Shown here one piece after another: positions 1,254 to 60,221 of a stretch of 64,000 nt of DNA (its first letter is position 1; every line of letters begins with the position of its first letter). A model generated the notes under the pieces. That model was given only the letters and a program-made list of their open reading frames with translations. It had not been told where the DNA came from and ran no database searches. This DNA is from a virus. The DNA is taken from the IMG/VR virus record IMGVR_UViG_3300033149_002227, positions 1-64,000 of that record, one strand, 5' to 3'. Both the position numbers and the translations under genes were made by a program.

Positions 1254-3154
1254 GACTGATTATGTGGAATAACTTGCTCATACTCGATTCGTGATTGGTT
1301 GTTTTCCAGTACCACATTCATCACGTCATCCACTCTTGCAGCGATGTCGTCGCGGTGTGTAATTAAGAACACACGCTTTTCTTTCTTACGACAAATCTCT
1401 CTGAGGGCGTTGACCGCGTTTGCAGCACCACTAGAACACATTCCCGAGTCGAGTAATTCATCTACTGCCAACATATTGATGGGATAGTTCATATACTCGA
1501 ACACGTCCTGAAACGAGAAATTTAGTGCTACGCGCACGCGCAAGCGCTGGCCCTTGGAGAGGTTTCCGTAGTCGAACTCCTCGCTGTAGTTTGTGATGGT
1601 CACCGTTAAATCGGGATTGAAGTGAACATGGTGTGGCAATTGAAGAATGTCGAGCCAGTATGCAATACGTTGGTTCAAGATTGGCATCCATCGGTCGATA
1701 ATTATCTGACGCAGGAAGCTGTCACGCTTCGTAAGCAATTCAATCAGGTACGTGTAGTGGCGAATCAATCGGCGTAGTTCGTGTATCTCGGACTCGTCAA
1801 CCACCTTAATGGCGTCTGTTTGTAATCCTTCTATGCTTTCACTGTGCGGGTTCGTTTCAGCAGATGTTGAAACAAGCTGCTTTCGTATGTTATCTAACTC
1901 AGTACCAGCCGATGCAGCTTCCTCGACGGTTCGGTATGTTAATTCTATTTGGTTCAAATCGGCCAACCGTTCCTCTATAATCGGGAGGGGTTTCCGTATC
2001 CCGTCAAGTTTCTTAACATGAACCTCGATGTCTGTTACCATTTCTTCAAAAGAAGCGAGCGCACCGGCACCGGCATCCTCAGCCGCTTTCTTCGATGCTA
2101 GAGCTTCCTCACGAAATTCAGGGTCCGGTTCCCAGTGCTGTTTACAGGTCGGGCATTCACTGTGATCTAGGGCGGCGATAGTCTCTTCTGCCTTCTCTAT
2201 ATCAGCCACAGCACGCTCTGCATCGCGCCCGTGGGCATTCATAGTATTAGTCCGCTCGCGTTGCTCTGCATCGAGTTCACGAAGACGTGATGTAACCTCT
2301 CGCATTGTTGAATCGAGTTCTTCTATTTCTCTCAGTATAGCTATTTCTTGATCGACATCAACCGACTCCAATAGAGAAATTGCTTCTGTCAACTCGGTGA
2401 CGGTGGCGTCCTTGCGCCCCTCCCATGCGACAGAACGGTGTTTCAAATCGTCAATCTGTTGGGTGATGCGTAAGTTGGCTTGTTTGGTTGCTTCAGCAGA
2501 AGACTCTGCATGAGCTAATTCTTTATTCCGTTCCTTGCGGTCTTCCTTGAGCGCTTTGGCTTTAGTGGACATGATAGTAAACCCGAATAGGGGCTCAATC
2601 ACAGCACGTTGCTTGTCTTCTGACAGCTTAAAAAACTCGGTAGACTCGGATGAGTTGGCTACAATGTATTCGAATAATGTGATGTCGAATCCGAGGATGT
2701 CGATAATCTGGTCAGTGGTTTCAGTTTTACCACGAGCTATATCAAATTTCATTTTGCGCTTGACCTTCGTTTTGAAATCCTCATCACTATCAATGGGTTT
2801 GCGCAGAAGGAGCAATCTACCCGGACGCTCTGTGCGTTCTACATGATATGCAAAATCACCTTTCTCAAACTCGACCCATACAATCATCTGCCCCTTGTCG
2901 GACATTTTGTTGATGAGTTTCTGATTTGATATACCACGAATGACTTTACCGAAGAGCACGTAGCATAGAGCGTCGATGATGGCAGACTTGCCGACACCGT
3001 TACGAGAATCTTCACCACCGTCATCCAAATTTTCACCGAGGATAACGGTAATGAAGTTACCTAATAGGGGGATTATAACTTCCTTCGGACCATAGGACAG
3101 GAAGTTTCGAAAACCTAAATCACCAAAATCTAAAGCGTTGCTGGACATGACCAT
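1250..3154 (-). CDS. 46: gp46-like recombination endonuclease subunit (SbcC/Rad50 type ATPase)
   Basis: 634 residues. An SMC/Rad50-type ATPase that pairs with the gp47 nuclease to resect DNA ends for recombination-dependent replication. The Walker A is split by an acidic insertion after GEN (residues 40-42) and ends NGVGKS (52-57). Two coiled-coil-like arms (about 200-330 and 340-480) flank a zinc hook CPTC at 334-337. The ABC signature is NLSKGQ at 531-536, Walker B MLAVDE at 561-566, and a terminal LITHRDD gives the switch histidine. Length and order match T4 gp46 (560 residues). It lies in a minus-strand operon downstream of gp47 and two small genes and overlaps both neighbours by a few bases. 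No strong ribosome site precedes ATG 3154, and ATG 3148 is an alternative. Confidence 0.93.
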   Translation of the reverse strand: MVMSSNALDFGDLGFRNFLSYGPKEVIIPLLGNFITVILGENLDDGGEDSRNGVGKSAIIDALCYVLFGKVIRGISNQKLINKMSDKGQMIVWVEFEKGDFAYHVERTERPGRLLLLRKPIDSDEDFKTKVKRKMKFDIARGKTETTDQIIDILGFDITLFEYIVANSSESTEFFKLSEDKQRAVIEPLFGFTIMSTKAKALKEDRKERNKELAHAESSAEATKQANLRITQQIDDLKHRSVAWEGRKDATVTELTEAISLLESVDVDQEIAILREIEELDSTMREVTSRLRELDAEQRERTNTMNAHGRDAERAVADIEKAEETIAALDHSECPTCKQHWEPDPEFREEALASKKAAEDAGAGALASFEEMVTDIEVHVKKLDGIRKPLPIIEERLADLNQIELTYRTVEEAASAGTELDNIRKQLVSTSAETNPHSESIEGLQTDAIKVVDESEIHELRRLIRHYTYLIELLTKRDSFLRQIIIDRWMPILNQRIAYWLDILQLPHHVHFNPDLTVTITNYSEEFDYGNLSKGQRLRVRVALNFSFQDVFEYMNYPINMLAVDELLDSGMCSSGAANAVNALREICRKKEKRVFLITHRDDIAARVDDVMNVVLENNQSRIEYEQVIPHNQS

Positions 3155-6671: not shown

Positions 6672-9265
6672 TGGTTGCTACTAAACAATATAGTAACAAC
6701 GTCAGTAACAACGATGTTGTGCAAGACTACGATAAAAATTCGGACACTGCCGTCAAAGAATCGAAGAAAATCATGAATGCGGAGCGACTAGCCCAACTAG
6801 CCGATGCAGCCAACGAAGCACAAGTACCGCTAGCGCGATTAAATAATAGCGCACTACTACAACCGGGATTCGCACCGGCAGGAGTAACAAAACTTGACGG
6901 CGGATTTAATGCTGAAGGAACAGAATCCCCATTGATTAGTAATCAGGAGAAAGAAAGCCCCCAAGTTACTAATTCAGCCCTAAGTGTTCGTGCGAAGAAT
7001 TCTGATACATTGACCATCCCCGATAACGTCTTGTTACCTTATGTCAGTCTGCAATACCATATGATATGGTCGATGGTGCCTACAGAAAATCTACCCAAGG
7101 TTCAGCAGAATATACCAGTCGGTGCAGGAAATAATAATGCTGGAACGTTCGATGAATTGATACGAGCTATATTAGCAGAAGGATCAGTACCATTCGCTTC
7201 AACCGGTGATGTATTCCGATTCGAACGTGCACCCGAAGAGTTTGACCCAAGCTCTAATGATCCACGGCTGATTACTCCAGACACATCCAAAATATTCAGC
7301 CAACAGTGGACACCAGCGAAGGGTAGGCATTACTATAACATCGAATCAGTGACGCTGGACAACGTAATGGCACCGACGGCACAGAACCCATATATCAATG
7401 CAATGGTCACGGGTAAAATGAACATTATAGAGCCACACGGATTCAAGTGGAACGAAGATGCCCGTAGGGTTGCTAACGATAACGGATATAATGGAGTCAG
7501 TCTAGGTCGCGTAGTATGGCGGTTGGATATATTCTTCTCTGGTTACAATCAGGATACTGGCGAATGGTCTCCATTCATCGAGTTGGATACCCGTGTCAGG
7601 AAGACTAAAGTCATAACCTATTACATGAACATCACCACGGTTGATGCTAAGGTTACCAATATGGGAACAACTTACGACATGAGCATTGTCCCTAGTGGAC
7701 ACTCCGCGTACCGACCAGAGGAAGTCATTGTGGATGCTGGTGCTATCTTTACTGGTAGCCAATCTCAGGCACAAACATTTGGAGGATTCCTCGAACGTGT
7801 TTCTCAGGTAATGAACAAAGCGGTTTCTGATAGAACAAACCAGCAGGTTGTTAGGAAGTACGAATTCAAAGCCCCACCAGAACTACTTGCCGCTGAATTT
7901 TTCTCAGGAGAATTCGAACGCAAACAGGGATTCTTGAAGAATAACCCCAAGGGTGGTTCTACCGTTTCAACTCCCAGAGACGCCAACGTCATTTCGCTAC
8001 TAGAGGATGCTCTGAAAGATTTGGAAATGACTTGGAATCAAATCCTCAAGAAAGATGATCCGAAACATCTTAAACCCCGAATACATTGGGGAATCCGATT
8101 CAATGTTGTTTATGGTTCGGGAGTTAACCCCGGAACCAATGACTTTGACGGAATCACGAATCAATATATCATCGAACCGTTTGTAACATACAAACAGGCA
8201 ACGATTAACAACAGAGACGAAATGACGAAGGTTGTTGATGTTAATGCACAGGCTGACCGTGTCGAACAGATGCTTCGACTGGGGATGATTAACAGAATTT
8301 ATAATTATATCAATACGTCGGAAAACAACGAAGTCATTGAAGTTGACATCGCGTTGAAGAATTTTTATTATCATACAATGTTCACTGGAGACGCTGGTAA
8401 ATCGGGTGCTAATCAAGCAACTGGTGCTAACTCTAAAATGAAGAAAGTATCAGAGGACTCCCTCCGAATCGATAAGGAAGGTGTTGGTAGCATCGACCAA
8501 GGCGAGGCTGCTGTACCGAGTAATCTAGAGAATAGTGTTCAATCGTCACTACGAAGACTGTTCGGAAGTTCAATCGATAATCCGTCGGCGACCTGTAGCG
8601 CACGAATATTTAAAACTCCGTATGACACTTACGGTGGTGGTTTTGGTGAAATGCCCAAAACGGATGCACGTGGTTCTGTTGGTAGTGAAGACATACTCAC
8701 GCGTAATGAATATCAAGCCAATATCAACCAACACATCAAAAATGATATGATAAAGATCGATGTAGAAGTTCGCGGCGATCCTCTGTGGTTACTGTCTCCG
8801 TATGGTAAGGATAGTGGAAACCTGTTAACAATTGGTAACGAAACCACCGATACGACATCAACATCAGCACTGGTTCAAACACAATCCGCTAGATGTTTCT
8901 TCCTTCGTATGTTCGCTCCTCACCAAGATGATTACATGAATCCAGATCGCAATGAATCGTCAACAGCTTGTAGTATTTTGGGTGGATTTTATGAAACCAT
9001 TAAAGTTAACTCTGTTTTCAAGGGGGGTAAGTTTACGCAAACCATAACTGCTGCAAAGATGAATCACCTAAATTATGTTGAGAACAATATTAGTTTAGCA
9101 ACAAATTCTCAAGTGGTGGGTGAAGGAGTAACTACGGATACGGATGTTTCACAGTCGGCTTCTCAACCAACCGTATCCGCTAAAGTGCCACCAAGAGACC
9201 CGCGAGATTTTGATCCTAATTCTAGCGTATCACAGGCAACATCCCGAATATTAAGCAACGTATGA
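6671..9265 (+). CDS. Large baseplate structural protein, hub position
   Basis: 864 residues between gp53 and gp5. The N-terminal 90 residues are helical and Asn/Ala-rich; the rest is mixed with repeated beta-like segments. Near residues 690-730 it has VEVRGDPLWLL, and near the end FKGGKFTQTI; both phrases are familiar from phage baseplate-hub and tail-structure proteins. T4 has the hub protein gp27 interacting with gp5, and this gene lies immediately before gp5 (10 nt gap), so a gp27-like adaptor role is possible. It is much longer than gp27 (391), so this may be a fused or unrelated structural protein. Confidence 0.6.
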   Translation: MVATKQYSNNVSNNDVVQDYDKNSDTAVKESKKIMNAERLAQLADAANEAQVPLARLNNSALLQPGFAPAGVTKLDGGFNAEGTESPLISNQEKESPQVTNSALSVRAKNSDTLTIPDNVLLPYVSLQYHMIWSMVPTENLPKVQQNIPVGAGNNNAGTFDELIRAILAEGSVPFASTGDVFRFERAPEEFDPSSNDPRLITPDTSKIFSQQWTPAKGRHYYNIESVTLDNVMAPTAQNPYINAMVTGKMNIIEPHGFKWNEDARRVANDNGYNGVSLGRVVWRLDIFFSGYNQDTGEWSPFIELDTRVRKTKVITYYMNITTVDAKVTNMGTTYDMSIVPSGHSAYRPEEVIVDAGAIFTGSQSQAQTFGGFLERVSQVMNKAVSDRTNQQVVRKYEFKAPPELLAAEFFSGEFERKQGFLKNNPKGGSTVSTPRDANVISLLEDALKDLEMTWNQILKKDDPKHLKPRIHWGIRFNVVYGSGVNPGTNDFDGITNQYIIEPFVTYKQATINNRDEMTKVVDVNAQADRVEQMLRLGMINRIYNYINTSENNEVIEVDIALKNFYYHTMFTGDAGKSGANQATGANSKMKKVSEDSLRIDKEGVGSIDQGEAAVPSNLENSVQSSLRRLFGSSIDNPSATCSARIFKTPYDTYGGGFGEMPKTDARGSVGSEDILTRNEYQANINQHIKNDMIKIDVEVRGDPLWLLSPYGKDSGNLLTIGNETTDTTSTSALVQTQSARCFFLRMFAPHQDDYMNPDRNESSTACSILGGFYETIKVNSVFKGGKFTQTITAAKMNHLNYVENNISLATNSQVVGEGVTTDTDVSQSASQPTVSAKVPPRDPRDFDPNSSVSQATSRILSNV

Positions 9266-16500: not shown

Positions 16501-18153
16501 ATTGGTGAAAATACTGCTGATAGTACATGGGTATGGAATGATGGTATCTATCAAGGGAAGGATGAATACTCAATCGTTACCGCACCAAATGAGACCACCG
16601 TTTCTTTCCCAGTCGCCCCCGGGGCAGGAACAGTCGTCTCCATTTCGGTACAACTAAATCCAGTGTTTGTCAGTAGCGATACCTATGATTTTGGAGCTTC
16701 TGACGGTATACAAACAAATTATGTGTTGACGGACTCAACCAATGTTGTCGCTGATACCACGATGGTATTTCAAGACGGTATTGCTCAGGCCGGTGCGCCA
16801 TGGGCGGTCGTGTCTCCATCATCATGGTCGGCTCCCGGATCAAACAATGTAACGTTTACGGCACCACCCGCACTCGGTGTTAATATAGCCATGATTAATT
16901 GGCCCGGTGGTGTGGGTACAGACCCAACTTCCACACAAGGTCAAACCGGTCTTGGTTTTGGTGGTGGTGATATCACCGACCTTCCAACAGGAACGAATAA
17001 CCTCGGTAACATCTCCGTTCAATCGTTGCTGGTATCATATCTTGGTCAGAATGTACCGCTATACATCGAAGACACACTCAAATCCCCAGACGGATACGTC
17101 AACGCAAATGGCGTTGAAGTCCGTCCGGCTGATGAAGATAATAGTGGTTTCGCAGACAGCCCATTCATATTCAAGGATATTGTTTTGCAGGATGGTTTTA
17201 CCGATCTTGTATTATGGAGAAAGATTGAGGAATTTGGATTCACCGTACTTGATCCAATCAGCCTGACAACCGGTCCGCGAGGAACATACGGTTTGTCTAC
17301 TGGTGGAGATGTTGGGGACGGCACAGCAATCGATAATAGCGGATATACTTCAGGTATTCCAGAACAGGTTGAAACCTCATTACCGGAATCTCAGTTTACC
17401 GTGCAAGAAGGTGACGTTCACTACGACATTGCAACCGAAACATGGTTGGTAGCTGACATCGCTACAACGATTACGTGGGTAGCCGCAGCCGACCAAACCG
17501 CATTCAAGGTTTTGATTGGTCGTAGTAATTTGAAATTCATGTGGTTGCATTATGCACCCGATGCTTACCGTATTGACCCATCAGTATCGAATGTCATGGA
17601 TATCTATATCCTAACAGCGACATACGATGACGCGTTCAGAACAGCACTGGATAATAATACCCCAACAGAAGATTTGCCGGATGCACCAACATCAGAGTCA
17701 CTGCGAATCGACTTCGCCGACTTCGATGACTTTAAGGCGATGAGTGATGCGATGATTTATCATTCTGCGCGTTACAAGATTTTGTTTGGTGAACAGGCAA
17801 TAACCGAACTGCAAGCTACGTTCAAGGTTGTTCAATCTGAAGGCTCGTTGCTCAGTGAGAATGATTTGAAACTGCGAATTCTTGACGCGATTGATACCTA
17901 TTTTGGTGTTGATAACTGGGATTTCGGCGAAGTGTTCTACATGACGGAATTGTTGGCGTTTATCCATCAGGAATTGGCACCAAATATCCAGACCGTAGTA
18001 GCAGTACCGAATTCAGACACAGAATCGTTTGGGCGGTTGTTCCAGATTCGTTCTGAACCGGATGAGCTTTTCATCTCTGCTACCAGCGCCGATGACATTG
18101 AAGTTGTTAACTCGTTCACTGACGAAGAACTCCGAATCGGTATCCTCTCTTAA
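13573..18153 (+). CDS. 6: gp6-like baseplate wedge protein, expanded
   Basis: 1526 residues, over twice T4 gp6 (660). The N-terminal and central part has gp6/gpJ character: the helical start, GRPLTRVTSG, then VRVRFGDGSYGEIPLGRF and a long domain with NRMITGRDYNAFF. The C-terminal part (about 1380-1526) is again alpha/beta, with YFGVDNWDFGEVFY. Inserted between them at about residues 800-1115 are four tandem beta modules of 70-80 residues. Each is marked by a hydrophobic strand, DG(I/V)YQ or DGIAQ, a DY/F-containing strand and a final PxxG-V strand. The same module occurs in the giant protein and in one tail fibre. In T4, gp6 dimers form the ring of the baseplate. Confidence 0.85.
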   Translation: MGVLQRQNTLFVSEDWVRIYEAIQNVDFRAYDFDNYVAALLDHLRDVFPEEFNDWIASSEFIMKVEVLAWLSQNISFRIDLNTRENFLATAERRDSLIRLAQNVSYKISRVRGASGRVRIESIRTTESLFDSNNIDLQDREIRWNDPRNEDYFEQFIIVMNAAFTNRTQFGRPLTRVTSGNSRIEQYVFNGRAPSNGSYPFTTSINGVSLPFDIINAMVDKDTGRTEELAPNPDNAYNTLYIADGKGLSSNGTGFFLELRQGTMQFQEEEFVQPEVVRIVNVDTQSINNDDFFVEQLDAQGSVEVIWDQVDTIFGESVSFLPTDRSDFIDEGEDTTGNQATGNARTVYELDTLENDRVRVRFGDGSYGEIPLGRFRFWYRTSNPQPQLVTPSDIGEQTFTLPYESGGTIYFLTITISLKEDIGNAAGSETNFSIRTRANQVYYAQNRMITGRDYNAFFLRDTAIRKVKSVNRTFSGQSRFAKLHDPTGLYENLKIVAEDGRFYQERVTGVNFASADTTILSNPLLIQNVIEPQIEEANKEQLYFNDYPEQFFPTSHFWYEDSVVNQQSRGRIVETQGDTNTSIAVGDATVAIPAKYVLVDSVLRLDNPRGVTVQVDRVPDDTGASADSIILERDTVDGIRIVSVFPPFRTKFTEPEKVLIEQQLELKLDFGLSWVQDTQTWIIILSDNLDKQESGGMFCLDDQGDTSGLNLDQSWMVYLEFVPGGDADDQWKVVDRGISEFFESDRENDFFFAGNEPVIDPETGAVKTDTILILESNESRDSLRRRNIINLSISAILECDVYCYKFTGDGVTTGFTTSENPLSPNVAVTVDEVLQINTIDFNIISKVSGDTIEFVVAPADGAEILVCISISNSLKSVKTDVFIDVQGNGLLDTYDLGTEPPMQSENLFVFLDGVYQRPFVDFSTATLINGNAAIVLASPLPSGVNMFVYGVGGIADVLFGRFDFVADGVLTDFTVAIGENTADSTWVWNDGIYQGKDEYSIVTAPNETTVSFPVAPGAGTVVSISVQLNPVFVSSDTYDFGASDGIQTNYVLTDSTNVVADTTMVFQDGIAQAGAPWAVVSPSSWSAPGSNNVTFTAPPALGVNIAMINWPGGVGTDPTSTQGQTGLGFGGGDITDLPTGTNNLGNISVQSLLVSYLGQNVPLYIEDTLKSPDGYVNANGVEVRPADEDNSGFADSPFIFKDIVLQDGFTDLVLWRKIEEFGFTVLDPISLTTGPRGTYGLSTGGDVGDGTAIDNSGYTSGIPEQVETSLPESQFTVQEGDVHYDIATETWLVADIATTITWVAAADQTAFKVLIGRSNLKFMWLHYAPDAYRIDPSVSNVMDIYILTATYDDAFRTALDNNTPTEDLPDAPTSESLRIDFADFDDFKAMSDAMIYHSARYKILFGEQAITELQATFKVVQSEGSLLSENDLKLRILDAIDTYFGVDNWDFGEVFYMTELLAFIHQELAPNIQTVVAVPNSDTESFGRLFQIRSEPDELFISATSADDIEVVNSFTDEELRIGILS

Positions 18154-18542
18154 CGTTCAAATGTACGCTTACGTTTACCACCCTTTTCACAAGGGTGGTG
18201 TCCGTATTTGTAAAAGTATTTCTTTGCATGGACGAACTTACCGTTTACCCAGAATCCGAACTTGCGTTTCTCTGGTCCACACAAACAGATTGTCCAGCAT
18301 GGTTCGTCTACAACGACGGTGTGGCGATGAAGTGCGGGCCAGTATGCGAGAGACCACCGAGAGCGAATTTTGGAACCTTTGGGACTAACGTCAGTATAGC
18401 TACCAGAAATTACCCAAGTGTAGAACCACCAAGCGTGGTCGTGCATGTAGAGGTCATCATCAGACTTAAACCAATGATGTAGGCGGATGGAGAAGTAGTG
18501 AAAATCAAGAACCCAACGCTCCATGTAGGGGCATTCGGTCAA
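18150..18542 (-). CDS. Cupin-like small protein
   Basis: 130 residues. The pattern HDHAWWFYTWVISG (around residue 34) and LHRHTVVVDEP (about 71) resembles a cupin beta-barrel, with candidate metal ligands in the HDH and HRH motifs. The aromatic content is high, and the basic C-terminus ends in GGKRKRTFER. The start is uncertain: TTG 18542 gives this length, ATG 18524 six residues less, and neither has a good ribosome site. It converges on gp6 and overlaps it by 4 bases. Related small cupins occur in large phages, but the substrate is unknown. Confidence 0.65.
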   Translation of the reverse strand: MTECPYMERWVLDFHYFSIRLHHWFKSDDDLYMHDHAWWFYTWVISGSYTDVSPKGSKIRSRWSLAYWPALHRHTVVVDEPCWTICLCGPEKRKFGFWVNGKFVHAKKYFYKYGHHPCEKGGKRKRTFER

Positions 18543-18593
18543 ACCAAGTTGTTCTTTCTAAGTAAATTTCATCTCTGTTCTCCAGAAAGTGGG

Positions 18594-18801
18594 TACCCGG
18601 GGATGGATTCAAACCACCGACACACGCCATGTACTCCAGACTTTTAACTCAGTTCATTCCGATATCCGCTTGGCTGTTCCCCCCGTCCGCGTGACGGGTT
18701 CCATTCCCCTTGCTTCAATCGACTTCATTTAGTATAGACAGGTTTCGTGATCCTTCCGCCTGTCATCTGGGGCGCTGCTCTGTCAACTGAGCTACCCGGG
18801 T
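18594..18801 (-). tRNA. tRNA-like gene interrupted in the anticodon loop
   Basis: Read on the minus strand: acceptor ACCCGGG (18801-18795) pairs perfectly with CCCGGGT (18601-18595). A D-arm GCTC/GAGC (18792-18777), an anticodon stem GCGCC/GGCGT (18775-18771 and 18628-18624, one G-U), a 5-nt variable loop GTGTC and a T-arm GGTGG/CCATC with loop TTTGAAT (18618-18602) complete the cloverleaf. Between the anticodon-stem halves lie 142 nt instead of 7, so there is an insertion of about 135 nt. No splice register gives U33, so the anticodon is not assignable; a CC/TACAT join would give UAC (Val). CCA is not encoded. Confidence 0.7.
18629..18770 (-). other. Structured intervening sequence within the tRNA-like gene
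   Basis: 142 nt between the anticodon-stem halves. It can form CCAGA/TCTGG at its ends, extending the anticodon stem, a 6-bp GACAGG/CCTGTC hairpin and a CCCGTC-ACGCG-GACGGG hairpin. The conserved group I core elements are not evident and it is shorter than usual bacterial tRNA introns, so its class is unknown. It could be a minimal intron, a degenerate insertion or a new RNA. Confidence 0.5.
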
Positions 18802-18888
18802 ATAAAATCGAATATGGATTAACTATAGTACTGGTCTAAACCAGTGTCAACCTTTTTCTTTTATTTAGGTAAAATAGCCCCAAATTTC

Positions 18889-56153: not shown

Positions 56154-57500
56154 ATGAAAACGATTCCAATAGGACCATCAATAGTGATGATGGTCGGTCC
56201 TTCTGGGGCTGGCAAGAGTACATTGATAGAAAGGCACTTCAACTCGCGTGAAGTCATTTCTACCGATGCTCTGCGCGTGGAATTTACCGGCGACAAGCGT
56301 CGGCAAGATAAGGACGATGAGGTGCTGGCCGAGGTCAGTCGCCGTGTCGAAGCGAAAATTAATGTCGGGCAGCGCGTTGTTATCGACGCCACCCACGTGC
56401 GCGACCAAGATCGTCGCCGCTCACTCGAACTCGGACTGATGCTGGATGTCCCAATAACCTACTTGGTGGTGAACCGGTCGGTTGAATCCAAAATGCAAAA
56501 AGCAGGTTGGAGAAAGGACATTTACGTTAAGAAGCTCACTAGCGGAAAACTTGTTAGCCTCATCGAGGCACACGAAGATACCTTCGTAGCCAACGAACAC
56601 AAAATTCTTGCCGGTGACAGTCAAGGTAAGAAAGTCACGGTTATCGATACTCGCGTGGAAGAGTTCAAAGTCGCCCGCGAACTATCACGGGAAAATCCGG
56701 TTGAACAGTTGATATCGAGTGGTTTCAATCGCGTGCGTGTCGTCGCTGACGTGCACGGAAATCTGGAATCATTTCGTAAGGCTATCGACGTACCCGAGGA
56801 CACCTTCCTGTTGTTTTTGGGAGACCTATTGGACTACGATGTCCGTGGTATCCAGATTGTAGAACGTGTGTACAAAATGGTTCAAGAAGGCCGTGCTATC
56901 ACTCTTCGTGGTAATCACGAACGGAAGATTGCGAACTGGGTTGTCAAGGAGCGTGGTAACGGTTTCGAAGGGAGTATCACTTCCGGCAACGACTTCACTG
57001 TTAATATGGTTAAGGCTATGACGCCAGCGCGTCGTGCTTTGTGGGAACGAAGGTTCCTAGCTCTGGTTGACCTGTCTCCTGATTGGATACAACTGGATCG
57101 GTTTCTATTCGTTCACGGTGCAGCACACCGCTCTATTTGGGATGATACATTATTCCGTGCAGAGGAAGAATCGAAGCGTATGGCCATGGCCATGTTCGGT
57201 GAGTCCACAGGCAAGACCATCGGCGGTTACCCTGAGCGGTTGTACAACTGGGTTGATGATATTCCCACCCGACACACCGCTGTCGTTGGGCATGCCGTAC
57301 TGTCAACCGAGGAGCCATTAACCAAAACCAATGACAAGGGTGGTAAGGCTATTTTCCTTGACACTGGTTCCTCGAAGGACATAGATGACTTCGGTCGCGG
57401 TCCTGCTGTTCGTGGACACCTGTCATGGATGGAACTGAGCATTGGGGCTTTGTCACGCAATGGCAGCTATGTGGTGTTCGATGCATTTGGTCGGGACTGA
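56154..57500 (+). CDS. Polynucleotide kinase-phosphatase (bacterial Pnkp-like, ligase domain absent)
   Basis: 448 residues. N-terminal P-loop kinase GPSGAGKST (15-23), with the later IDATHVRDQDR motif typical of 5'-polynucleotide kinases. The C-terminal half is a calcineurin-like phosphatase: ADVHG (Asp199, His201), GDLLD (Asp224), GNHE (254-256), FVHGA (His321) and GHAV (His380). The order kinase then metallophosphatase is that of bacterial Pnkp, not T4 Pnkp, whose phosphatase is HAD-type. Such an enzyme would heal 5'-OH and 2',3'-cyclic phosphate ends before sealing. The ligase partner here is a separate gene at 59487. Confidence 0.85.
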   Translation: MKTIPIGPSIVMMVGPSGAGKSTLIERHFNSREVISTDALRVEFTGDKRRQDKDDEVLAEVSRRVEAKINVGQRVVIDATHVRDQDRRRSLELGLMLDVPITYLVVNRSVESKMQKAGWRKDIYVKKLTSGKLVSLIEAHEDTFVANEHKILAGDSQGKKVTVIDTRVEEFKVARELSRENPVEQLISSGFNRVRVVADVHGNLESFRKAIDVPEDTFLLFLGDLLDYDVRGIQIVERVYKMVQEGRAITLRGNHERKIANWVVKERGNGFEGSITSGNDFTVNMVKAMTPARRALWERRFLALVDLSPDWIQLDRFLFVHGAAHRSIWDDTLFRAEEESKRMAMAMFGESTGKTIGGYPERLYNWVDDIPTRHTAVVGHAVLSTEEPLTKTNDKGGKAIFLDTGSSKDIDDFGRGPAVRGHLSWMELSIGALSRNGSYVVFDAFGRD

Positions 57501-57861: not shown

Positions 57862-59487
57862 ATGCTACGTACAAAATCATCAAGTTGGTTCATTCCATTC
57901 TGCTTTGTCGGAGCGTTGATAGGTATAATTCTCACGACCGGTCACTCTCCTGCCGCCCAACTCCGCTACGACACCAGTTCTCAACTGAATTACGGCGAAC
58001 AATTCCAACGGGTACTCGATGCAATACGTGGCAATAGCGTTAATGCCGAGGCAGTAAAATCAGAGGAAGATTTATTCAATATTGCCGTCGATGCCATTTT
58101 GGAAAAAATTGGTGATAAGCACGGAAGATATTTTTCCGCTGAAGAATACCAACGGTTACAAGGCGACCTTCGACCTGCAAATTATACCGGTGTGGGGATT
58201 CAAATTGCTCCCGGCGCAGGTGGTGCCATTATTCTCAACATATTTGACAATTCTCCATTGCATAACATGGGCGTTAGAGTAGGTGATTTAATCACCGCTG
58301 CTGGTTCTCTGGGTGAACCGATGGTTGAATACGATCCAGAAGACCTGATGGTAATCGTAACCGCAATTAAAGGACGGGCAGGGACGGATGTTATATTAAA
58401 CACCAGACGTGGAACTCGGAACCTTCCGCCTATTACTGTTCCACGAATACAGACTAGAAATCAATACGTGTATATGAAACGTTCCGAGACCGGAGTTCTC
58501 ACAATACGAGTGACACAGTTTTCCGGTTCAGTCATCGGTGATATCAAATCTATGCTATCAGATCGAGGGTGGTTAGGTAGAAACGACGTGCTGGATACGA
58601 GTATTATCAAAGGTGTGGTTTTGGATTTGCGGGGTAATCCCGGTGGTATATTGGGTCAAGCGGTATACGTTAGTGATTTGTTTCTCCCAAAGGACGTATC
58701 AGCAGTTCGCGTCATCGAGCGCCCCGAAGTTGAAGGCGGACCGGCTATGGCGTATAATTACCTAACTGCTGACGAAAGAATGTTCCCTGTTGATATTCCA
58801 CGAGTAATATTGATAAACGGCGGTTCGGCGTCTGCATCGGAAATCGTTGCCGGAGCAGTACAAACACATGCCGAAGGTCTCATCATGGGTATTAAATCCT
58901 ACGGTAAAGGTTCGGTGCAAACTGTCATTGATTTGCCCGGAGGAACCGGCATTAAAACCACCTCGGCTATCTACTTTGCGGGTGGCACCATGGAAATCGA
59001 TGGTATCGGAGTAATGCCTGATGCTGTAGTTCTTCAACCCGACCCTATCGGACTGAGTGCCGACGACAAGAGTTTCAATGGTCACCTTATAAAGATTTCA
59101 ATGGACCCCGAAATGGATCACCAATTGAATGTGGCTCATACTTACATCAATGCATTTATCAGTGGTGAGCATGTATTGGACGTACCGGAATCACGACAGG
59201 CTGCGGAAAACAAAGCACACGGTGCTGAAACCAAACTCATAAACATTTGCGACCAACGGGGACTTCGGGGTTGTCCACCAGTGGATATCACATTATTCGA
59301 AAACATTGATCACGGTTCGTTTTTATCAGATACGGATGCTGCGGGTTGGATGTGTTACCCAGACGAAGGAGAAACCGAGTGGGACGACATGTCATTTCTG
59401 GATGGCTACGGCATAAGTGATTTATTCAGCCTTTCTTTATCGGGCCAAATGTGTCCAAATGACGAAATAACATTTACGTTGGAATAA
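57862..59487 (+). CDS. S41 C-terminal-processing protease-like enzyme
   Basis: 541 residues from ATG 57862 (TTGGAGAAATTAATT ribosome site). N-terminal signal or anchor helix (WFIPFCFVGALIGIIL, about 9-24), then a PDZ-type domain (GVGIQI, VGDLITAAG, about 110-175), then the S41 core: LDLRGNPGG, GGSASASEI with nucleophile Ser324, and SYGKGS with Lys349, 25 residues on as in CtpA. The C-terminal 130 residues are acidic and unrecognised. It would work in the periplasm on C-termini of membrane or exported proteins. Confidence 0.88.
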   Translation: MLRTKSSSWFIPFCFVGALIGIILTTGHSPAAQLRYDTSSQLNYGEQFQRVLDAIRGNSVNAEAVKSEEDLFNIAVDAILEKIGDKHGRYFSAEEYQRLQGDLRPANYTGVGIQIAPGAGGAIILNIFDNSPLHNMGVRVGDLITAAGSLGEPMVEYDPEDLMVIVTAIKGRAGTDVILNTRRGTRNLPPITVPRIQTRNQYVYMKRSETGVLTIRVTQFSGSVIGDIKSMLSDRGWLGRNDVLDTSIIKGVVLDLRGNPGGILGQAVYVSDLFLPKDVSAVRVIERPEVEGGPAMAYNYLTADERMFPVDIPRVILINGGSASASEIVAGAVQTHAEGLIMGIKSYGKGSVQTVIDLPGGTGIKTTSAIYFAGGTMEIDGIGVMPDAVVLQPDPIGLSADDKSFNGHLIKISMDPEMDHQLNVAHTYINAFISGEHVLDVPESRQAAENKAHGAETKLINICDQRGLRGCPPVDITLFENIDHGSFLSDTDAAGWMCYPDEGETEWDDMSFLDGYGISDLFSLSLSGQMCPNDEITFTLE

Positions 59488-60221
59488 TGTCGAAGTTCCC
59501 AACAATCAAGACAATCGACGACGTACTGCCGTTCGTCAAGCATCACGAAGAGTTCACCGTGACTGAACATCAATGGGGTATATCAATTGATTACCAGACA
59601 CCAGATGTAACCACGTTCAATACCCCACAGGCGAGAGAATGTCGCGGCATAAAATTCCGCTTGGACGGTAGTCTTCTAGCTCGCCCTTATCACAAGTTCT
59701 TCAATATCGGTGGTTCGCGAATGCGCACTGAAGCATTGATTGCGTCAGGGCGCTTCGACAACAAACACACTATCCTCTATATGCCGCATGGCTCGATGAT
59801 TCACCCAATCGTTCATAATGACACGGTGTTCTTTTGCACCCGCTCGGGGATCACTGACGTAGCTGAGCAAGCACTCAGGTTTGTCACGCCTGTCCACGAC
59901 TCACAGAACGCCGGACCGTGGTGTACGGATTTCTGCTATGATTTGGCAAAATCAAATCTCACAGCAATTTTTGAATGGTGCCCCCAAGTTGAACCCGTTC
60001 AAAAATATCCAGCAAACAGGCTAGTACTGACCGCTATCCGTACAAATCAAACTGGGGAATACCTCAGCTATGACAGCATGCGAGCACTAGCCGGTTCGTA
60101 CTATATTCCTATGATCGGTTCCTTCGATGGCGACTGGACAGACGTTGCGAAAAATGAAAGTTATGTCATTCGGTGGAATGATGGTATGATGGGTAAACTC
60201 AGAAATAATCGCGGAAAATGA
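59487..60221 (+). CDS. Rnl1-like RNA ligase remnant, catalytic lysine replaced
   Basis: 244 residues. T4 Rnl1-type landmarks are clear: ECRGIKF, RPYHKFFNIG, FEW (motif III-like), LTAIRTNQTGEYLSYD and a final ESYVIRW...GKLR stretch. But the KxDGS adenylation motif, Lys99 in T4, reads MPHGS with Met at the identical position 99. The protein also stops after motif V, lacking the C-terminal domain of T4 Rnl1 (374 residues). It probably cannot form the lysyl-AMP intermediate. It may bind RNA, compete with host ligases or act on pre-adenylated ends. Overlaps the protease gene by 1 nt. Confidence 0.75.
   Translation: MSKFPTIKTIDDVLPFVKHHEEFTVTEHQWGISIDYQTPDVTTFNTPQARECRGIKFRLDGSLLARPYHKFFNIGGSRMRTEALIASGRFDNKHTILYMPHGSMIHPIVHNDTVFFCTRSGITDVAEQALRFVTPVHDSQNAGPWCTDFCYDLAKSNLTAIFEWCPQVEPVQKYPANRLVLTAIRTNQTGEYLSYDSMRALAGSYYIPMIGSFDGDWTDVAKNESYVIRWNDGMMGKLRNNRGK

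Follow-up and report, generated by a model that had tools for sequence, protein, structure and literature searches.

Among described RNAs, T4 rnaC (species 1) and rnaD (species 2) resemble the element reported here in being phage-encoded small RNAs of unknown function. In rnaC a canonical T-arm (CCGGG-TTCGAAT-CCCGG) is joined to a long non-tRNA middle, and the same arrangement, in which a tRNA-like end module is attached to a domain of another kind, was found in the element of the window (the whole 64,000-nt stretch of viral DNA analysed). The T4 RNAs differ in being located in a tRNA cluster and in having no sequence similarity to the element, and no complete D-arm plus anticodon stem was found in rnaC by the scan.

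Three further systems show partial likeness. Group I tRNA introns are also inserted in the anticodon loop of a complete cloverleaf, but the insert of the element is 135 nt long and is without a group I core, U33 or detectable homology. The archaeal and eukaryal tRNA introns (bulge-helix-bulge, EndA) likewise are short, variable inserts, enclosed by a helix that adjoins the anticodon stem. By comparison, the bulge of the element is one-sided (7 nt; 5 nt opposite 1 nt in the related locus L003), no EndA gene was found in the searched records, and the element has a bacterial-type promoter and lies in a phage. Finally, tmRNA and YrlA carry a tRNA-like module on a longer RNA, whereas the element has a complete D-stem and has no common tag frame, Rfam match or, in the searched records, Ro60/TROVE gene.

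A complete tRNA body on the minus strand

The window is part of a virus record of 74,825 bases, a fragment of a jumbo phage related to the RaK2/GAP32/PA5oct group; the baseplate wedge protein encoded in it most resembles those of jumbo phages of this kind. ARAGORN and Rfam detected no tRNA in the window record or in the 103-kb relative G001; the 347-kb relative G003 has 51 Rfam-detected tRNAs and a tmRNA. Within viral contigs, tmRNA genes were observed in L023 (8216..8552; G003), L095 (9393..9837, minus strand) and L198 (9292..9692, minus strand).

A full tRNA cloverleaf with stems of 7, 4, 5 and 5 bp was located on the minus strand between positions 18801 and 18595, with an anticodon loop of 142 nt, that is, 7 nt plus 135 extra nt. 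The layout is ACCCGGG-TA-GCTC-AGTTGACA-GAGC-A-GCGCC-[142 nt]-GGCGT-GTGTC-GGTGG-TTTGAAT-CCATC-CCCGGGT, followed by A-CCCA, and it bears out the preliminary description of a cloverleaf whose anticodon loop holds 135 additional nucleotides. The 5' part (18777..18801) comprises the acceptor strand ACCCGGG (18801-18795), U8A9 and the D-arm GCTC-AGTTGACA-GAGC with its 8-nt loop. A26 stands between the D-arm and the anticodon stem, in which the 5' strand GCGCC (18771..18775) pairs with the 3' strand GGCGT (18624..18628). The intervening 142-nt "anticodon loop" (18629..18770) is a fast-diverging domain. The 3' part (18590..18623), consisting of the V-loop GTGTC, the T-arm GGTGG-TTTGAAT-CCATC, the acceptor strand CCCGGGT (18601-18595), A and CCCA, is near-identical in L003. 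A U-1:A73 pairing could extend the acceptor to 8 bp, ending C-CCA. The body is that of a class I tRNA, with the tertiary positions U8-A14, G15-C48 (Levitt pair 15-48), G18-U55 and T54-A58 and an elbow formed by 18-55 and 19-56, so that the four stems and the tertiary core expected of a decoding tRNA are all present.

The element was not called by ARAGORN, the tRNA-detection software used for the check named in the preliminary description, or by Rfam at the gathering score; the length of the loop and the non-canonical base 56 of the T-loop are a plausible reason. Under strict scan rules (7/4/5/5 bp plus a T-loop rule, an insert of at most 200 nt, both strands), one match was obtained in 1850 block-shuffled 64-kb windows. 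Conservation in a relative is the stronger test of the element.

Compensatory changes in a related phage

L003, a locus of the 103-kb relative G001, represents a second phage whose DNA is about 80% identical and which carries the same tRNA body; it is the sole diverged relative behind the pair comparison among the matches listed. Nine substitutions separate the window from L003 over 54 paired positions, and none of them breaks a pair: they form four double compensatory pairs and one change from A-U to G-U. The anticodon stem, for instance, is GCGCC/GGCGT in the window and GTGCT/AGCAT in L003, a difference of two compensatory pairs. When random substitutions were simulated, all 27 pairs stayed intact in 16 of 1.5 million trials (about 1 in 100,000), and with a strong transition bias in 715 of 1.5 million (about 1 in 2,000); these odds are somewhat generous because the closing helix of the insert, described below, was picked after the fold had been seen. 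The preliminary description had considered that the pairings might fail in related sequences or that relatives might have an ordinary tRNA without the insertion. All 27 pairs are intact in L003, and no insert-free tRNA was found at this place among the matches listed.

At the elbow, positions 19 and 56 form A-U in the window element and C-G in L003. Since A19-U56 is also found in ordinary phage tRNAs, the elbow of the window element is of the tRNA type; for the same reason, the altered elbow was rejected as a unique signature. A19-U56 often stands in place of the near-universal G19-C56 in ordinary phage tRNAs, as observed in L062, L070, L282, L283, L285 and others, and the replacement is apparently a covariation.

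Selection has kept the tRNA shape in two related viruses, and the element is therefore very probably a real RNA and not a broken gene. A decayed tRNA gene with unrelated DNA inserted would agree with the missing U33, the lack of a usable anticodon and the failure of tRNA finders to call it. This reading, already disfavoured, is highly improbable: after the two lineages separated, compensatory changes occurred and no pair was broken, the promoter is conserved, and each lineage has an insert.

A BLAST search with the region found no match among 50,697 phage records, and searches for homologues by D-arm, T-arm and cupin protein returned only the same two lineages among the matches listed. The observation is confirmed and firmer than the preliminary description could make it, yet confined to two lineages.

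The insert and its closing helix

The loop of L003 is 174 nt long (167 extra nt), and its insert is unalignable with that of the window outside a closing helix. This 6-bp helix, P1, closes the insert in both phages. In the window its strands are CCAGAU (18765..18770) and GUCUGG (18636..18641), and the helix reads CCAGAU/GUCUGG as compared with GUAGAU/GUCUAC in L003; two pairs are compensatory, and AGAU/GUCU is unchanged. The minimum free energy (MFE) folds of both inserts have a common topology of helix P1, hairpin P2 and long arm P3. In the window, P2 (GACAGG...CCUGUC) is predicted at 18737..18764 and the long irregular arm P3 at 18647..18733, both by MFE only, with similar topology in L003.

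The inserts were not more stable than their dinucleotide shuffles (z of -1.3 for the window and -0.6 for L003), so P2 and P3 are predictions only, and folding into hairpins, as noted in the preliminary description, is by itself no evidence. What stands of that statement is P1, which is backed by the comparison of the two phages.

Anticodon loop and the intron question

Removal of the insert left U33 in no register, in the window or in L003, which extends to both phages what had been stated for the window; the base at position 33 would have to be C or G. A 7-nt loop with U33 and a conserved anticodon was obtained in neither phage. The loop bases beside the stem are CC...ACAU in the window and UG...ACGU in L003. 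Positions 32-34 and 37 differ, and only A35, C36 and U38 are common to both. With differing loop bases and no U33, the anticodon is not what selection keeps, and the absence of U33 together with the non-conserved 5' side of the loop makes a decoding tRNA freed by splicing unlikely.

Two observations keep the splicing reading alive. A cut after position 33 would give UAC in the window or CAC in L003, both valine anticodons, and the phage has genes for a Pnkp-like enzyme of RNA end healing (P-loop kinase plus metallophosphoesterase; 56154..57500, plus strand), with a homologue in G003, and for a T4 Rnl1-type RNA ligase (59487..60221, plus strand). A non-group-I intron of a phage tRNA would be removed by an endonuclease and sealed by these healing and sealing enzymes. 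The insert does occupy the classical intron site, the body is conserved while the interior has diverged and the boundary helix is kept, and A35, C36 and U38 are shared. In addition, other phage tRNAs have inserts of 39-92 nt, too short for group I, and some of them keep U33 and a sensible anticodon, such as Glu(UUC) in L191 and Ala(UGC) in L207. On the other side, both phages lack U33 in every register, and the 5' side of the loop is not conserved. As to a bulge-helix-bulge intron, the predicted junction between the stems (0 versus 7 nt in the window, 1 versus 5 nt in L003) does not have the geometry of two 3-nt bulges with a 4-bp helix between them. Splicing endonuclease (PF01974, EndA) was not found in G000, G001 or G003 (G000 and G001 being fragments), nor was RtcB found in these partly fragmentary records. 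To our knowledge, T4-type phages have pnk and rnl1 without tRNA introns, which also counts against splicing. The new type of intron proposed in the preliminary description is weakened, and we regard it as rather unlikely.

The covariance-model check agreed with the preliminary description that group I core motifs are lacking, since RF00028 was unmatched at E<=10 in both phages. As a control, the same Rfam library found a 255-nt group I intron in a phage tRNA of L241. A shrunken group I intron would suit the insert position in the anticodon loop, but no core motif is conserved between the two inserts and we know of no functional group I intron as short as 135 nt, and this explanation is extremely improbable.

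Every Rfam family, including group I, tmRNA and Y RNA, was rejected for the window, which gave no match at E<=10 in the permissive scan; the two L003 matches, mir-251 and nuclear RNase P, were at chance level and biologically senseless. The element also failed as a tmRNA (RF00023 unmatched, no tag frame common to both phages, D-stem complete) and as a YrlA or Y RNA (RF02553 unmatched, no Ro60/TROVE gene in the searched, partly fragmentary records).

Promoter and downstream cupin gene

A sigma-70-type promoter, TTGACA-17-TATAGT (18822..18850, minus strand; 11 of 12 consensus positions), lies upstream of the tRNA-like RNA, with about 20 nt between its end and the tRNA body. Its counterpart at the matching position of L003 is TTGACA-17-CATAAT. 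Downstream, on the same strand, is a cupin / cysteine-dioxygenase-like gene (18150..18572; phrog_4786), whose ATG (18572-18570) follows a Shine-Dalgarno-like stretch about 18 nt past the CCCA end. The corresponding gene of L003 is at about 8172..7750 on the minus strand, and comparison of the two (dN 0.13, dS 0.97) indicated purifying selection.

Codon 5 of the cupin gene is an in-frame UAG (18558..18560, minus strand) that is conserved in L003. Homologues in other phages have Trp at this place (Bajun VKFAWRKPGGLPECPY; window MKFT*KEQLGLTECPY). The first 60 nt of the gene show two differences between the window and L003, both synonymous, and the coding constraint therefore seems to extend across the UAG. 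The next in-frame ATG, GTG or TTG after the UAG in L003 is the ATG at codon 17.

Elsewhere these phages use TAG as a stop, and its genome-wide recoding was rejected, as TAG stops 4 of 62 ORFs in the window and 11 of 102 in G001; no other UAG-interrupted gene was evident in the window, and one comparison was unusable on account of the noise from aligning antisense frames. In G003, a tRNA (L027, 18699..18776) has the CUA (amber) anticodon, U33 and A37, and about 18% of the ORFs nevertheless end in TAG.

The element might act in cis as a leader controlling the cupin gene, for example through readthrough of the codon-5 UAG or access to the ribosome-binding site. By position and promoter it would share a transcript with the gene, the UAG is conserved in both phages with coding constraint beginning at the ATG, and a relative, G003, encodes a CUA-anticodon tRNA. 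Sequestration of the ribosome-binding site by the insert was rejected, as no pairing common to both phages was found, and the element was likewise rejected as its own CUA suppressor tRNA, since no register yields CUA in both phages. Cis control is accordingly considered very unlikely.

Other tRNA-bodied RNAs in viral contigs

IMG/VR scans for odd D-loops brought up multi-copy RNAs and short-insert tRNAs, here given among the matches listed for these and for the broad D-arm scans. The RNAs bounded by AGTCAGG...CCTGACT (L086, L098, L153) resemble the element in having near-constant acceptor, D- and T-arms around unrelated middles of differing length. Unlike the element, they occur in several copies per phage and have another body sequence, and the L086 copies lie near ordinary tRNA genes. 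Copies were found in L086 (7219, 6926, 6708 and 4593, minus strand) and L098 (597, 843, 1056 and 1362, plus strand), and also in L153, L122, L095/L106, L127 and L114, with middles of 80-162 nt in most copies. The L098 multi-copy region had no match in the phage record collection.

Phage tRNAs with anticodon-loop inserts of 37-92 nt, too short for group I, were seen in L191 (reverse-complement position 935), L183 (5402..5279, minus strand), L207 (1613..1453, minus strand), L238 (3854..3965), L087 (2809..2571 and 3137..3021, minus strand) and L118; the motif ACUAACAGCAAGG is common to the two L087 inserts and one L118 insert. On the minus strand of L100 (reverse-complement position 470), a tRNA has a 458-nt insert between ACGGT and ACCGT and gave no group I call at the Rfam gathering score.

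By its looks, the window element is best filed as an RNA that has a tRNA body and a variable domain, a description that assigns it to no named family.

A proposed leader RNA with a tRNA body

Of the three options offered in the preliminary description (a new tRNA intron, a decoy tRNA and a non-coding RNA using tRNA ends), the third fits best because the tRNA body covaries and no usable anticodon loop is conserved. We tentatively propose, at slightly less than an even chance, that the element is not an intron but a stable leader RNA of a jumbo phage, in which a tRNA body carries a variable payload arm. The strong promoter would start the transcript about 20 nt upstream of the tRNA body. The ends of the RNA would fold into the complete tRNA body, with the closing helix and the fast-changing payload arm in place of the anticodon loop. 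RNase P and the host 3'-end machinery might recognise this body, cut the RNA away from the cupin message that follows and shield its ends. What the RNA offers would then be the payload arm, as bait, guide or protein-binding arm, and not codon reading; we infer this function. Against the proposal, only two distinct lineages are known among the matches listed, the independent backing of the payload arm is the closing helix alone, chosen after the fold had been seen, and a conserved body with a diverged insert is equally expected of an intron.

A decoy or sponge is a related option, in which a host factor, either a defence nuclease that targets tRNAs or a tRNA-binding factor, would be drawn to the tRNA body and then spoiled or trapped by the insert. 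Phage tRNAs with altered anticodon loops have been proposed to evade anticodon nucleases (PMC10264068), the repair cassette is present, and a fast-changing insert on a fixed body resembles an arms race. However, the analysis pointed to no particular nuclease or target, anticodon nucleases require anticodon-loop features that the element lacks, and the text of PMC10264068 does not mention introns or insertions. We therefore consider a decoy improbable.

As for the wider scope of the leader RNA with a payload arm, it is possible, if doubtful, that the tRNA body is a scaffold of general use in phages, in which the fold gives processing and end protection and a freely evolving payload replaces the anticodon loop. 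The window element, with its own promoter and coupled to a gene that would need UAG readthrough, would be a single-copy case and the multi-copy AGTCAGG family a further one; the first, known for a long time, may be T4 rnaC.

If the element is spliced instead, a bacterial virus with RNA-repair enzymes of its own would harbour a tRNA intron whose removal depends on proteins. If the proposed scaffold is true, part of the phage "tRNA" repertoire would not be for decoding, and RNAs with other functions would have a stable chassis in the tRNA fold. This would reopen the half-century-old question of the T4 stable RNAs, and also the question of what lies behind the odd or intron-bearing tRNAs that tRNA finders report in large phages.
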